This document shows, piece by piece, positions 17,715 to 23,763 of a DNA stretch of 39,036 nt (the stretch's first letter is position 1; each line of letters begins with the position of its first letter). The DNA lies in the NCBI GenBank assembly GCA_902560685.1, contig CACEMT010000009.1, forward strand, positions 1 to 39,036, written 5' to 3'. The notes under the pieces were generated by a model. The model saw only the letters and a list, made by a program, of their open reading frames with translations. It ran no database searches and was not told the DNA's origin. The position numbers and the translations under genes are program-made. The DNA is from an uncultured Pelagibacteraceae bacterium. Lineage in GTDB: Bacteria; Pseudomonadota; Alphaproteobacteria; Pelagibacterales; Pelagibacteraceae.

Positions 17715-18392
17715 ATGGAAATGGGATTTAGATGGGATTTTGCTTATGAAATTTTACCACAAATGTTATGGGCAACTTTAAATACAATAATCGCTGCGGG
17801 AGTTGGATATGCAATAGCTTTAGTTGTTGGATTATTTTTTTTACTTGGCCAAAGAACCCCTTCTAAGATTGTAAATGTAATTAATAGAGAAATAGTAGAA
17901 TTTATCCGTTCAACACCACTTTTAATACAATTATTTTTTGTTTACTTTGTATTACCTCAATTTGGAATAAAATTATCAGCATGGTTATGTGGGATGATTA
18001 CAATCGGTTTACATTTTGGAACTTACTTATCTGAAGTTTATCGTGGAGCATTAGAAGGAGTATCCAAAACTCAATGGGAAGCATGCAGAGCATTAAACTT
18101 TTCAACTGTTTATACTTATAGAAGAATTGTTTTACCTCAGGCATTTCCAATTGCAATTCCCGGAATGGGTAATTATTTAGTTGGAATTTTCAAAGACACA
18201 CCACTCTTATCAACAATTGGTGTTGCAGAGTTATTTCACGCAGCAACAGCTGTAGGGGGCTATAATTATAGATATTTGGAACCTTATACAATGGTTGGTA
18301 TAATATTTTTAACACTTTCTATCCCAGCTGCTATGTGGGTTAGAAATTTAGAAAAAAAAGTTAACGTAGCTCAAGGAAAATTAAAACAATAA
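17715..18392 (+). CDS. ehuD: Ectoine/hydroxyectoine-type ABC permease (EhuD-like)
   Basis: A 225-aa paralogue of the preceding permease. It shows the same [14 protein letters not shown] region and coupling loop [18 protein letters not shown]. Starts at 17715 or 17721 are both in frame (MEMG). Its stop shares a base with the start of the ATPase gene (TAATG), so the two are translationally coupled. A longer C-terminal segment ends in a basic tail ([16 protein letters not shown]). Confidence 0.8.
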
Positions 18393-19180
18393 TGGATAAA
18401 AATTCTCAAGAAATAATTGTAAAGTTTGACGAAGTTACCAAACAATATGGAGATCTTGTAGTTTTAGATAAGCTAAATTTAAATATTAAAAAAAATGAAA
18501 TGGTTTCAATTATTGGTCCTTCTGGTTCAGGCAAAACTACTGTTTTAAGAGTATTAATGACTTTGGAAAAAATCAATGGTGGAGTTATTCATTTGGATGG
18601 TGAACCACTTACTCATATGGATACAAATGGCAAATTAGTAGAAGCGAATGAAAAATATTTGAGAGATAGACGTTCAAAAATTGGTATGGTATTTCAACAA
18701 TTCAATTTATTTCCACATATGACAGCTCTTCAAAATTGTATTGAAGCTCCAGTTGAAGTTTTAGGTATGAAAAAAGAAGAGGCAGAAGAAAGAGCACTTG
18801 AGCTTTTAGAATTAGTGGGGTTAACTGACAAAAAAGATCAACATCCTTCAAGATTATCTGGAGGCCAGCAACAACGTGTTGCAATCGCAAGAGCTTTAGC
18901 AATGAGACCAAAAGTAATGTTGTTAGACGAAATAACTTCAGCTTTAGATCCAGAAGTAGTTGGAGAAGTTTTAAACGTTATAAGATCGTTAAATAAGGAA
19001 CACAATTTGACTATGATTATGGTCACACACCAAATGGGATTTGCGAGAGAAATTTCTGACAGAGTATGTTTCTTTAATGAAGGAAAAATTTTTGAACAAG
19101 GTCCACCCGAACAATTATTTGGAGATCCTAAAAATGAGAGAACAAAACAATTTCTACATGCTGTACTTGATGCGAATTAA
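18392..19180 (+). CDS. ehuA: Ectoine/hydroxyectoine-type ABC transporter ATPase (EhuA-like)
   Basis: A 262-aa polar-amino-acid-type ABC ATPase. Walker A is [10 protein letters not shown]-loop [12 protein letters not shown], signature [14 protein letters not shown], Walker B VMLLDEI followed by TSALDPE, and switch His in VTHQMGFA. Between Walker A and the Q-loop there is a longer loop ([18 protein letters not shown]) typical of the EhuA/amino-acid subgroup. It overlaps the EhuD-like gene by one base and completes the importer. Thirty bases separate its stop from the disrupted start region of the ureohydrolase gene. Confidence 0.82.
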
Positions 19181-19210
19181 AAAACTATATATATTTTTAA
19201 AAATTATACT

Positions 19211-20171
19211 TTGAAAAAAAAATAAAAAAACAAAACAACCGGTTAGTGGAACAAAGGTTCCTAGATTTGCAGGACCTTCAACTTTTGCAAGATTACCTGA
19301 ATTAAGAGATGTTGAAAAATGCGATATAGCAATTGTTGGGATACCATTTGATGCAGGAACTAGCTATAGACCTGGTGCAAGATTTGGACCACAAAGTATA
19401 AGACAAGCATCAAGGCATTTAAGAACGAATTATCACCCAAACTATGACAGCGAACCTTTTGTTGAACAACAAGTTGCTGATGCTGGTGATATAGCTTGTA
19501 ATCCTTTTAATATTAATGAGGCAATTAAACAAATAGAAGTTGGAGCGACAGACTTACTAAATAAAGTAGGTGGAATAATTAGTATGGGAGGAGACCACAC
19601 AATTGCATTTCCACTTTTAAAAGCTGTAAATAAAATAAATAAAGGTCCAGTAGCATTAGTTCATTTTGATGCACATTTAGACACTTGGGATACTTATTTT
19701 GGAGCTCCGTTTACTCATGGAACTCCATTTAGAAGAGCTAGAGAAGAAAATTTATTTTTAGATGATGCCTCAATGCACGTAGGAATAAGAGGTCCTTTAT
19801 ATAGTAGAGATGATATAAAAAATGATGAAAGTTTCGGTTTTAAAATAATTCATTGTGATGAGTTTCAAAACCAAGGTACTGACAAAATTGCAGAAAGAAT
19901 AAGAAATAGAGTAGGAAATAACCCTTTATATTTATCAATTGATATAGATGTTTTAGACCCTGCTTTTGCCCCAGGAACTGGTACACCTGAAATTGCAGGT
20001 ATGACTACAAGAGAAATGGTGAATGTTTTAAGAGGGCTTTCAGGTCTAAACTTAATTTCAGCTGATGTAGTTGAAGTTTCTCCAGCATATGATCATGCTG
20101 AAGTAACATCTTTAGCTGCTGCGACTATTGTATATGAATTAACAAATCTATTTGCAAAAAAAAAACTTTAG
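19211..20171 (+). CDS. speB: Agmatinase-family ureohydrolase with frame-disrupted start
   Basis: Conserved coding begins well upstream of the first in-frame ATG (19584): in-frame sequence from 19215 reads PVSGTKVPRFAGPSTFARLP and GIPFDAGTSYRPGARFGPQS, the normal N-terminus of agmatinases. The metal site is complete: GGDHT, HFDAHLDTW and SIDIDVLDP. These enzymes hydrolyse agmatine, guanidinobutyrate or related guanidino compounds to an amine plus urea. The frame has a TGA at 19212-19214 and no ATG, GTG or TTG before 19584. A TTG at 19211 followed by nine A is one base out of frame; removing one A gives a 319-aa protein of normal length beginning MKKNKK. An indel error, a real mutation or slippage on the A9 run are the explanations. 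It follows the ehu-type genes and precedes an ALDH. Confidence 0.8.
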
Positions 20172-20185
20172 GTTAGATTTTCCAA

Positions 20186-21619
20186 ATGCTAGATAGAAAA
20201 AACTTTTACATTGATGGAAAGTGGGTCTCACCAGCAGAACCAAAAAATTTCAAAGTAATCGATCCATCAAATGAAGAAATATGTGCTGAAATATCTATTG
20301 GAGGAAAAAAAGATGTTGATAAAGCAGTTAGCGCTGCAAAGAAAGCTTTTGAAACTTGGGCTTTTTCAAAAAAAGAAGAAAGATTAGATTTATTAGAAAA
20401 ATTATATGTAGTTTATAAAAAAAGATGGGCAGAAATGGCAAAACTCATCTCTCTTGAAATGGGTGCGCCAATGAAATTTTCAACAGAAATGCAAGCTGCA
20501 ACAGGAGCTAGTCATATAAAATCTTTTAAAAATATCCTAAAAGATTTTAAATTTGAAAAAGATCTAGGAGAAGAAAAAAATAATCAAAAATTACTGTATG
20601 AGCCAAAAGGGGTTTGTGCTTTGATAACACCTTGGAATTGGCCAATAAATCAAGTTAACTTAAAAGTAATTCCAGCACTAGCATCAGCATGCACTGTAGT
20701 GTTAAAGCCGTCTGAAATAGCACCGCTATCATCTATGTTACTTGCAGAGATGATAGATGAAGTAAAATTTCCTTCTGGAGTTTTCAACTTAGTTAATGGA
20801 GATGGAGCAACAACTGGAGATGCGTTAACAAGCCATCCTGACGTAAACATGATATCATTTACTGGCTCAACTAGAGCAGGTGCATTAATTTCTCAAAATG
20901 CTGCAAAAGATTTTAAAAGAATTAGTTTAGAACTTGGTGGTAAGGGTGCAAATATAATATTTAAAGATGCTGATTCTGAAGCTGTATCTAGAGGAGTTCT
21001 AAGATGTTTTAGAAACTCAGGGCAATCATGTAATGCACCAACAAGAATGCTTGTTGAAAAATCAATTTATGATGAAACTGTAGAAAAAGTAAAAGAATTA
21101 GCAAATAATACTAAAGTAGATGCGCCACAAAAAGAAGGTGATCATATTGGACCTGTAGTTTCAGAAGTACAATATAATAAAATTCAGGATTTAATTCAAA
21201 AAGGAATAGATGAAGGTGCAAAGTTAATTGCTGGTGGAACTGGAAAACCAAAAGGTTTTGAAAAAGGATACTACGTAAAACCAACAGTGTTCGCTGACGT
21301 TAATAATCAAATGGAAATTGCAAGAACTGAGATTTTTGGTCCAGTATTATCTATAATTCCTTTTGAAAATGAAGAAGAGGCCATTTCAATAGCTAACGAT
21401 ACTCCTTATGGTCTTACAAATTATATTCAAACTCAAGATAAAGAAAAAGTCAAAAGAGTTGCGAGAAAACTTAGATCAGGAATGGTAGATGTAAATGGAG
21501 TTGGTATAGCCGTTGCCTCACCTTTTGGTGGATACAAACATTCTGGAATTGGACGAGAAGCTGGTACAGAAGGATTAATAGAATTTTTGGAAGTAAAAAC
21601 AGTCGGTGGCTGGAATTAA
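20186..21619 (+). CDS. NAD(P)-dependent aldehyde dehydrogenase
   Basis: A 477-aa ALDH with ITPWNWP, FTGSTRAG, catalytic Glu in LELGGKGA and catalytic Cys in SGQSCNAPTRM. It is nearly the same length as the ALDH at 1999-3429 and similar throughout, from the start (MLDRKNFYIDGKW) to the end (EVKTVGGWN), so the two are paralogues. It begins 14 bases after the ureohydrolase stop, so a plausible substrate is the aminoaldehyde derived from the product of that enzyme (for example from putrescine or 4-aminobutyrate routes), or aspartate semialdehyde in ectoine breakdown. Neither is proven by sequence. Confidence 0.9.
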   Translation: MLDRKNFYIDGKWVSPAEPKNFKVIDPSNEEICAEISIGGKKDVDKAVSAAKKAFETWAFSKKEERLDLLEKLYVVYKKRWAEMAKLISLEMGAPMKFSTEMQAATGASHIKSFKNILKDFKFEKDLGEEKNNQKLLYEPKGVCALITPWNWPINQVNLKVIPALASACTVVLKPSEIAPLSSMLLAEMIDEVKFPSGVFNLVNGDGATTGDALTSHPDVNMISFTGSTRAGALISQNAAKDFKRISLELGGKGANIIFKDADSEAVSRGVLRCFRNSGQSCNAPTRMLVEKSIYDETVEKVKELANNTKVDAPQKEGDHIGPVVSEVQYNKIQDLIQKGIDEGAKLIAGGTGKPKGFEKGYYVKPTVFADVNNQMEIARTEIFGPVLSIIPFENEEEAISIANDTPYGLTNYIQTQDKEKVKRVARKLRSGMVDVNGVGIAVASPFGGYKHSGIGREAGTEGLIEFLEVKTVGGWN

Positions 21620-21746
21620 ATTCCAAATTTAAGTTAATAGATCAAATTGGGTTTAATAAATCATAAAACAGGGGACTTTTAACTCATCATTAATAAACGC
21701 TTGATATTATTATCATAAAATTTACCGTTATTTAATTAGAAAACAT

Positions 21747-21757
21747 GGAAGGAGGAA
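21747..21757 (+). promoter_or_regulatory. Strong Shine-Dalgarno of the NCS1 permease gene
   Basis: GGAAGGAGGAA ends a few bases before the ATG at 21761, an unusually full match to the ribosome's anti-SD for this genome, where most genes have weak or no site. The 141-base gap 21620-21760 upstream holds no gene; it shows a small inverted repeat over the ALDH stop (21611-21625) but no confident terminator, promoter or riboswitch. Confidence 0.6.
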
Positions 21758-21760
21758 GAT

Positions 21761-23215
21761 ATGGGTAGATCTTCTAAATTATATAATAAGGATTTAGCTC
21801 CAACTCCAAGTTCAGAGAAAAAATGGGGATGGTTTGAAATCTTTAACGTATGGGCTAACGATGTTCAAAGTTTATTTGGATATACTTTGGCAGCTTCATT
21901 ATTTATAGCATCAGGTTTAAATGGCTGGGCTGTATTTCTTGCATTAATTCTTGCAGGATTTTTTATAATGTGGCTTGTTAACCTATCAGGAAAACCAAGT
22001 GTTAAACATGGTATTCCATATCCAGTATTTGCGCGTGTAAGTATGGGGGTATTTGGTGCAAACTTTCCAGCAATGGCAAGAGGCCTTGTTGCAATGTTTT
22101 GGTACGGTGCTCAAACTTATGCAGCTTCAACAGCAGTTGCACTTTTAATCACAGCACTAACAGGAATACAGGGTGAACCTGTATTACTTGGAATGTCGGG
22201 AGTAATGTGGATTTCATTTATTTTTGTTTCACTTTTCCAAGTTTATCTGTTTTGGCAAGGAATTGATCTTGTTAGAAGATTTTTAAACTTTGCTGGACCA
22301 GCAGTTTATATTGTGATGATTGTTTTAATGATAGCTATTTGGGCTAAAGCTGGTGGCGGATTATTATCAGAAGTTGGAGAAATATTTTCAGGAGGTGAAC
22401 GTTCAGGTGGATTTGAAGGCCTAGGTTCGTTTGGTGCTTTCTTGGCAGTATTCTCAATTATGGTAGGATATTTTGCTGCAGTAGTTATTAACTTTGGTGA
22501 CTTTGCTAGATTTGTTAAAAATGAAGATGAAATGAAAAAAGGTAACCTATGGGGATTAGTAGGGAATGTAGTTTTCTTTTCATTCATAACTTTAATGATC
22601 ACTGGTGGTACAATTGCAATATTTGGAGAGTACGTTGCGCAACCAACAGAAATGGTTGCTAAAGTAGACAATTTACTTTTAACTTTAATTGCAGCATTTG
22701 CATTTTTTGCAGCTACAGTTGGTATAAATATGGTAGCTAACTTTATACCTCCAGCATATGACCTTGCAAACTTAATGCCAGACAAAATAAATTTTAGAAC
22801 TGGTGGTTTAATAACTGCTATTTTTGGATTTGTTATTGGTGGAATGTGGGTCGCTGTTATTACACAAATGGGAATGTTTCCATTTGTTAATACTTTAGGA
22901 GCAATTTTAGCACCAGTATTTGGAATAATGATTGTTGATTATTATGTAATCAAAAATCAAAAAATCGATGTAGATGATTTATTTTCTGATAAAGCAAGTG
23001 GAAAATATCATTACAACGGAGGATTTAACGGAAAAGCAATGTTAGCTTGGTTGATATCAGGTTATGTTGCAGTTGGATCAGTTTGGCCAAATATATTATT
23101 TGCTGGTTTGGATGATTTCTTCGCTAATTTAGGTGGCGGAGGAGGATATGCTTGGATGATTGGAGCAGCTTTAGGTGCTATCATTCATATGGCAATATCT
23201 GGAAGAGGTAAATAA
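21761..23215 (+). CDS. NCS1-family nucleobase/allantoin:cation symporter
   Basis: A 484-aa inner-membrane permease with about twelve predicted helices. The NCS1 signature is clear: IFNVWANDVQSLFGYTLAAS near the N-terminus, then GIPYPVFARVSMGVFGAN and RGLVAMFWYGAQTYA. NCS1 proteins take up cytosine, uracil, hydantoins or allantoin with Na+ or H+. The convergent operon just downstream encodes three allantoin-degrading enzymes, so allantoin (or a related ureide or purine) is the most likely substrate, by context. It is read by its own strong ribosome site and ends at a GC-rich hairpin. Confidence 0.88.
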   Translation: MGRSSKLYNKDLAPTPSSEKKWGWFEIFNVWANDVQSLFGYTLAASLFIASGLNGWAVFLALILAGFFIMWLVNLSGKPSVKHGIPYPVFARVSMGVFGANFPAMARGLVAMFWYGAQTYAASTAVALLITALTGIQGEPVLLGMSGVMWISFIFVSLFQVYLFWQGIDLVRRFLNFAGPAVYIVMIVLMIAIWAKAGGGLLSEVGEIFSGGERSGGFEGLGSFGAFLAVFSIMVGYFAAVVINFGDFARFVKNEDEMKKGNLWGLVGNVVFFSFITLMITGGTIAIFGEYVAQPTEMVAKVDNLLLTLIAAFAFFAATVGINMVANFIPPAYDLANLMPDKINFRTGGLITAIFGFVIGGMWVAVITQMGMFPFVNTLGAILAPVFGIMIVDYYVIKNQKIDVDDLFSDKASGKYHYNGGFNGKAMLAWLISGYVAVGSVWPNILFAGLDDFFANLGGGGGYAWMIGAALGAIIHMAISGRGK

Positions 23216-23233
23216 TCGAGTAAATTAAAATTA

Positions 23234-23267
23234 AAAGCTCGCCGCATGTTGTGCGGCGGCGGGCTTT
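23234..23267. terminator. GC-rich bidirectional terminator between permease and allantoin operon
   Basis: A hairpin whose inner arm CGCCGCA pairs with TGCGGCG (23240-23246 and 23252-23258) and whose outer arm AAAGC pairs with GCTTT (23234-23238 and 23063-like position 23263-23267), with a small bulge on the right side. It lies 18 bases after the permease stop and overlaps the end of the convergent ureidoglycolate lyase gene, so it can serve both strands. Its GC content is far above the surroundings. Confidence 0.75.
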
Positions 23268-23763
23268 AGTATTTCAAAGTAATATTTTCTTTATCTAAGT
23301 TTTCAATAACTAGATTTTCACCAGATCCTTTTCTATCGACTACTAAAAAATTCATATCTTCAGTAGATATTAATGGGAAATGCCAAGTACCTGGATTGTA
23401 ATTTACTCCTATACCAGGAGGTATTATAAAAGCTTCAATTTTGTTTAAATCTAATTTTTCTTCTCTAGGTGCAACAAATACTAAAAAAGTAGTTTCTTTC
23501 ATTGGTATGAATGCTTGACTTCCCAAAGGGTGTTTTTCCATCATATCAATCTTCATTGGAAAACTTCTTTTTAAAGCAGAAAAAATACTAATTGTAGTTT
23601 CACCATTATCTTTCGAGGTATTTAATTTAGCTATACCATCATATCTTTTTGCATACCCATTATTTATTTCTAAAGGCTCTATATCCTTTGTTGAGATCAT
23701 GTCTCCATATTTAGCAAAATTTTCCTTTGTAATTGGTATTGGTTCTATTATTTTTTCAGTCAT
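23266..23763 (-). CDS. allA: Ureidoglycolate lyase
   Basis: A 165-aa cupin-fold protein of the AllA family, full length. It splits ureidoglycolate to glyoxylate and urea, the last step of the allantoicase route. Conserved features are PITKENFAKYGDMIS at the N-terminus, MEKHPLGSQAFIPM in the middle, and the PGIGVNYNPGTWHFPL active-site segment. Its ATG overlaps the allantoicase stop by four bases (ATGA), showing translational coupling. It is the last gene of the minus-strand allantoin operon. Confidence 0.9.
   Translation of the reverse strand: MTEKIIEPIPITKENFAKYGDMISTKDIEPLEINNGYAKRYDGIAKLNTSKDNGETTISIFSALKRSFPMKIDMMEKHPLGSQAFIPMKETTFLVFVAPREEKLDLNKIEAFIIPPGIGVNYNPGTWHFPLISTEDMNFLVVDRKGSGENLVIENLDKENITLKY

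Follow-up and report, generated by a model that had tools for sequence, protein, structure and literature searches.

The window, a stretch of 39,036 nucleotides assigned to an uncultured Pelagibacteraceae bacterium, carries a long open frame between a gene for an EhuA-like ABC transporter ATP-binding protein and a gene for an aldehyde dehydrogenase (Table 1). In a profile search, the translated frame exceeds the curated cut-offs of PF00491 (316.7 bits, cut-off 22, 1.9e-94) and of two agmatinase models, NF002564 (314.3 bits, cut-off 302) and TIGR01230 (235.5 bits, cut-off 174.3), and is accordingly predicted to encode a ureohydrolase of the agmatinase/arginase family. Among the protein matches listed, which also include partial and distant ones, the near full-length matches are 86-98% identical and nearly all of them align from residue 1 or 2, which marks the frame as a real gene. 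An agmatinase (speB) has been postulated to convert agmatine to putrescine in cultured SAR11, in the relevant passage of PMC8437039. The closest solved chains by sequence are a 3-guanidinopropionase (2.2e-79) and a guanidinobutyrase (9.9e-78), with agmatinases behind at 2.3e-60 and weaker, and so agmatine is not settled as the substrate of the predicted enzyme, which may act on another compound. A second ureohydrolase was not found in the assembly of the window's genome, which is 81% complete and in which the gene itself is the sole match. On the 3' side of the gene, positions 20186-23763 of the window hold the aldehyde dehydrogenase gene, an NCS1-type permease gene and, on the opposite strand, a ureidoglycolate-lyase-like gene, a setting which, together with the closest solved chains, may point to a substrate other than agmatine.

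Table 1. Features at the ureohydrolase locus and frameshifts or start flags in the same assembly and in other SAR11 loci (window coordinates unless a contig, C, or a locus, L, is named)
Feature	Position	Strand	Basis or remark
ABC transporter ATP-binding gene, EhuA-like, upstream	18392-19180	+	TIGR03005, 408.1 bits, cut-off 345.4
TTG, matching the start codon used by the closest relatives	19211-19213	+	28 bases before 19239 here
TGA closing the gene frame upstream	19212-19214	+	Stop-to-stop frame begins at 19215
A9 run	19214-19222	+	Sequence and comparison with relatives, the closest of which have A8 or an interrupted run
TAA ending the TTG frame after four codons	19223-19225	+	Translation
Open frame of predicted agmatinase-family ureohydrolase, 318 codons and stop; its head lacks an in-frame start	19215-20171	+	NF002564, TIGR01230, PF00491
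Earliest in-frame ATG of the gene (MGGDHT)	19584-19586	+	Translation; a start here loses the first 123 codons
Aldehyde dehydrogenase gene, downstream	20186-21619	+	PF00171
uvrC frameshift	Near C17:6880 (gene pieces C17:6320-8153)		At or beside an A7 run; offset +1
galU-like gene frameshift	Near C7:38545		At or beside an A7 run; offset -2 (same frame as +1)
ribH (lumazine synthase) frameshift	Near C3:94463 (pieces C3:94243-94621)		A8 run; offset +1
Broken start of C14 gene	C14, near 8410		T7 after ATGGAAGAG; T6 in G199
Remaining flagged start in the window's genome	C2:43472		Not counted as real
Homopolymer frameshift, other neighbourhood gene	L056, near 6320
Homopolymer frameshift, other neighbourhood gene	L052, near 3915
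Homopolymer frameshift, other neighbourhood gene	L057, near 6847
Homopolymer frameshifts, other neighbourhood genes	L058, near 4215 and 5072

The head of the gene contains no usable start in its own frame. Exactly nine A lie directly 3' of the TTG, with a T as the next base, so that the frame of the TTG reads TTG AAA AAA AAA TAA. The frame of the gene itself is bounded by a TGA and meets its first ATG, GTG or TTG at 19584, from where 195 amino acids remain. The original prediction had described both frames, including a loss of about 120 residues from a start at 19584, and direct reading confirms the description with its coordinates, the loss being that of 123 codons of open frame. It had also proposed initiation at a non-standard codon, which would be permitted by a frame that is open from 19215. 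No CTG, ATT, ATA, ATC, ATG, GTG or TTG, however, was found in frame from the TGA to 19239, and a start at the ATG would dispense with the first 123 codons, so that this proposal gains no support and such initiation is exceedingly improbable. A poly-A run directly after a start codon is in itself ordinary in the window's genome: 695,197 bases of that genome yielded 665 mechanically called open reading frames of at least 100 amino acids, and the start is directly followed by at least six A in 47 of these and by at least eight in 11.

The original prediction had suggested a comparison of the locus with related SAR11 genomes, and this comparison was carried out. Matches, weak and partial ones included, were obtained in 176 of 201 genomes of the genus by protein search, the window's genome being among the 201, and in 348 of 399 genomes by DNA search. 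From the best matches of these longer lists, 138 loci besides the window's own were taken for a census of starts; one was truncated by a contig edge and dropped, and merging of identical sequences reduced the other 137 to 99 distinct sequences. In all 99, an ATG, GTG or TTG stands in frame, 8-13 codons ahead of the residue encoded at window position 19239, and an out-of-frame start was found in none of these 99, which were counted across species with one genome per species. A TTG start is present in 19 of the 99, in 18 cases nine codons before that residue, and these 19 comprise 14 sequences with A8, three with a five-A run broken by T or C, and two that are more divergent. The commonest states with another start codon are GTG with A10 (33 of the 99), ATG with A6 (22) and ATG with A10 (16). 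The length of the run thus varies among relatives, yet not one of the starts is out of frame. Among the matches listed, the closest sisters, at 91-92% DNA identity, possess A8 or an interrupted run. By this comparison, the out-of-frame A9 state is private to the window's genome among the sequences examined.

It is probable that the additional A is a technical insertion of one base, made during amplification, sequencing or assembly, and that translation from the TTG yields a normal enzyme in the cell. The normal start of the gene would be that of its nearest relatives, TTG followed by eight A, and one further A in the run would place the start out of frame in the window's sequence. That A would have been introduced during whole-genome amplification, sequencing or assembly, and we infer a laboratory or assembler origin for it; the lesion at the ureohydrolase would then be one of several of the same kind in the assembly, and the living cell would probably produce an enzyme of ~319 residues. 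Its 37 contigs, a completeness of 81% and the designations of the nearest named relatives suggest that the assembly itself is a single-cell genome. A fault rather than a control device is most likely, because every relative with a readable start is in frame and one-base breaks of a similar kind are scattered over this and other SAR11 assemblies. The undecayed state of the coding sequence from 19239 on also speaks for a technical insertion.

To search for frameshifts elsewhere in the window's genome, 982,293 of its 1,077,484 bases were compared, in pieces, with the proteins of one relative (G012) and part of those of a second (G199), a comparison that overlooks most shifts near gene ends and in genes with no counterpart among the query proteins. 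Internal frameshifts were detected in three of 651 genes tested, namely uvrC, ribH and a galU-like gene, all at or beside runs of seven or eight A (Table 1). Starts were flagged as missing in five of 608 genes tested, and two of the five are taken as broken, that of the ureohydrolase and that of a gene on contig C14, whose G199 protein matched no NCBIfam model at E 0.001. The flags at C7:38853 and C3:31469 were rejected as lesions, since the sequence there looks like over-extended starts of the query proteins. In uvrC, ribH and the C14 gene, one extra base lies in or beside the run relative to one or two relatives. For the galU-like gene, the sole aligned relative is 75% identical and the window's genome has two bases fewer, which establishes a shift to the one-extra-base frame but not an extra A; the galU-like protein of G012 falls under the curated cut-off of TIGR01099. 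Both ribH and uvrC are present as two pieces in different frames, and an intact copy of either was not found in the assembly, which is 81% complete. The ureohydrolase lesion is thus accompanied, in unrelated genes of its own assembly, by lesions of the same class, and a private lesion in such company is a pattern expected of an assembly or amplification error.

The frequency of such lesions differs between the genomes compared. In 400,000 bases of G199, none of 267 genes contains an internal frameshift, where about one would be expected at the rate of the window's genome, and the single start flag looks by eye like a tRNA stretch. In 1.34 Mb of G012, two of 535 genes contain an internal frameshift, or five pairs under other rules, and one start is flagged. 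This inequality among assemblies counts against an artefact, although the expectation for G199 was no more than about one. Across 79 further SAR11 loci from named records (L032-L110; 522,106 bases), five frameshifts were found in 493 genes, distributed over four loci, with offsets of +1 in four cases and +2 in one, while none of 418 starts tested in these loci was lost; the rate is a rough one, because all these loci represent a single gene neighbourhood and the query proteins were in part those of the window's genome. Relative to orthologs, three of the five have one extra A, one has two extra A, and in the fifth the surplus base lies among A and G. Of the four affected records, L052 and L057 carry titles that call them single amplified genomes, and the other two bear AG- names, as used for single cells.

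For a marine single-cell workflow, benchmarking has put indels at 3.0 per 100 kb (PMC11247762). The window's genome shows five apparent coding frameshifts in 982 kb, ~0.5 per 100 kb, and although the two figures are not like for like, the benchmark counting all indels, the lesions described here need no error rate higher than that of the benchmark. The resemblance to the indels of single-cell assemblies lies in isolated small changes scattered over unrelated genes, at a density that is lower here; a difference is that the benchmark passages of PMC11247762 give no share of indels that falls in homopolymers or in genes.

The remainder of the gene is informative for a second explanation, that the extra A is a real and very recent one-base insertion into an A8 run of the cell or strain, which has switched the gene off. 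From 19239 on, the codon changes private to the window are 18 silent and no replacement in a comparison of six sequences, and 30 silent and two replacement in one of four sequences. In the absence of general decay, the gene cannot be long dead, if it is dead at all, and for the same reason a real mutation would necessarily be recent. The off state may be reversible, because such runs mutate often: for the swrA run of Bacillus subtilis, rates of ~1e-5 for the change from eight to nine and ~1e-4 for that from nine to eight are cited in PMC2831843. The same source describes inlA of Listeria (A7/A6), which shares with swrA (8/9 A) and with the ureohydrolase gene a short run of A near the 5' end of the gene; translation of the A6 form of inlA ends after 8 residues, and here it ends after four codons. 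A further point in favour of a real mutation is that the leader separating the TTG from the transporter gene is more changed than in relatives and that one head codon before 19239, outside the counts above, codes for a different amino acid (AAA; in most relatives ATA, ATT or ATC), as would fit relaxed constraint; a one-base artefact explains neither the changed leader (19180-19211) nor the AAA codon. Unlike known phase variation at 5' poly-A runs, however, none of the other 99 distinct sequences, counted across species, is out of frame at this position. Moreover, ribH and uvrC are similarly broken with no intact copy found in the 81% complete assembly, a condition unlikely in a live free-living cell. 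A real mutation is therefore regarded as possible but less likely than a technical insertion.

Slippage on the A9 run was also considered, whereby RNA polymerase or the ribosome would slip on the run and an in-frame fraction of product would rescue or regulate the gene. Precedents exist in the A11 run of Citrobacter rodentium tssM, with about 20-25% frameshifting according to the part of PMC4256274 that treats it, and in the nine A of Thermus dnaX, for which PMC1088944 reports that about half of the product is of the other form. The coding sequence of the ureohydrolase, in addition, looks selected. The locus resembles tssM in that a poly-A run lies shortly before a premature stop with coding sequence beyond it, although the stop is 28 bases from the run in tssM and directly adjoins it here (PMC4256274). 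In contrast to the A11 run of tssM, the run here is shorter and is not conserved, the out-of-frame state being absent from all 99 distinct sequences. The direction of slippage is also unfavourable: repair of the frame requires that one A be lost or two be gained, or, for a ribosomal shift, +1 (or -2), whereas single insertions are described as prevailing in homopolymers in the passages concerned of PMC5574713 and PMC6260861, and a gain of one A leaves the frame broken.

Runs of nine A are, furthermore, not avoided in SAR11 open reading frames. With expectations derived from synonymous-codon shuffles of the open reading frames of three genomes, A9 was observed 326 times against 321.6 expected in G012 (1.01), 240 against 213.6 in the window's genome (1.12) and 158 against 133.4 in G199 (1.18). 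Avoidance is clearest for longer runs in G012, where the ratio of observed to expected falls to 0.79 for A10, 0.65 for A11 and 0.35 for A12 and longer; the corresponding ratios are 0.93 for A10 and 0.42 for A11 in the window's genome, and 1.22 for A10 in G199. The regulatory slippage put forward in the original prediction thus lacks both a conserved out-of-frame run and a run length that is shunned in coding sequence, and is improbable. A trace of product may arise by slippage, with no sign that A9 is a used device. A search of the literature for slippage in SAR11, judged by titles, returned nothing on the subject. A broader version, in which SAR11 bacteria carry real one-base poly-A/T frameshifts, those of ribH and uvrC included, and tolerate them because RNA polymerase or ribosomes slip on A7-A9 runs often enough to yield some full-length protein, as described for Buchnera, is more improbable still; the start of the ureohydrolase gene would then be one instance. 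Among the four explanations offered at the outset, it is homopolymer error that is best supported, a true mutation in part of a population comes next, and neither a non-standard start nor regulatory slippage is supported.

These lesions call for caution, in that automatic annotation would shorten or omit a conserved SAR11 enzyme on account of one base, and claims of gene absence from single SAR11 assemblies carry the same kind of error. As a rough rate, one apparent coding frameshift occurs per 100-200 kb in the window's genome and the 79 loci, whereas 400 kb of G199 contained none and 1.34 Mb of G012 two internal ones. If the lesions were real, the question would become what allows a streamlined free-living bacterium to live with them.

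No Rfam family matched at its gathering score anywhere in the window, and the leader of the ureohydrolase gene is therefore not explained by any known riboswitch family. The leader (19181-19210) differs from its counterparts at many positions, and several relatives are near-identical to each other there.
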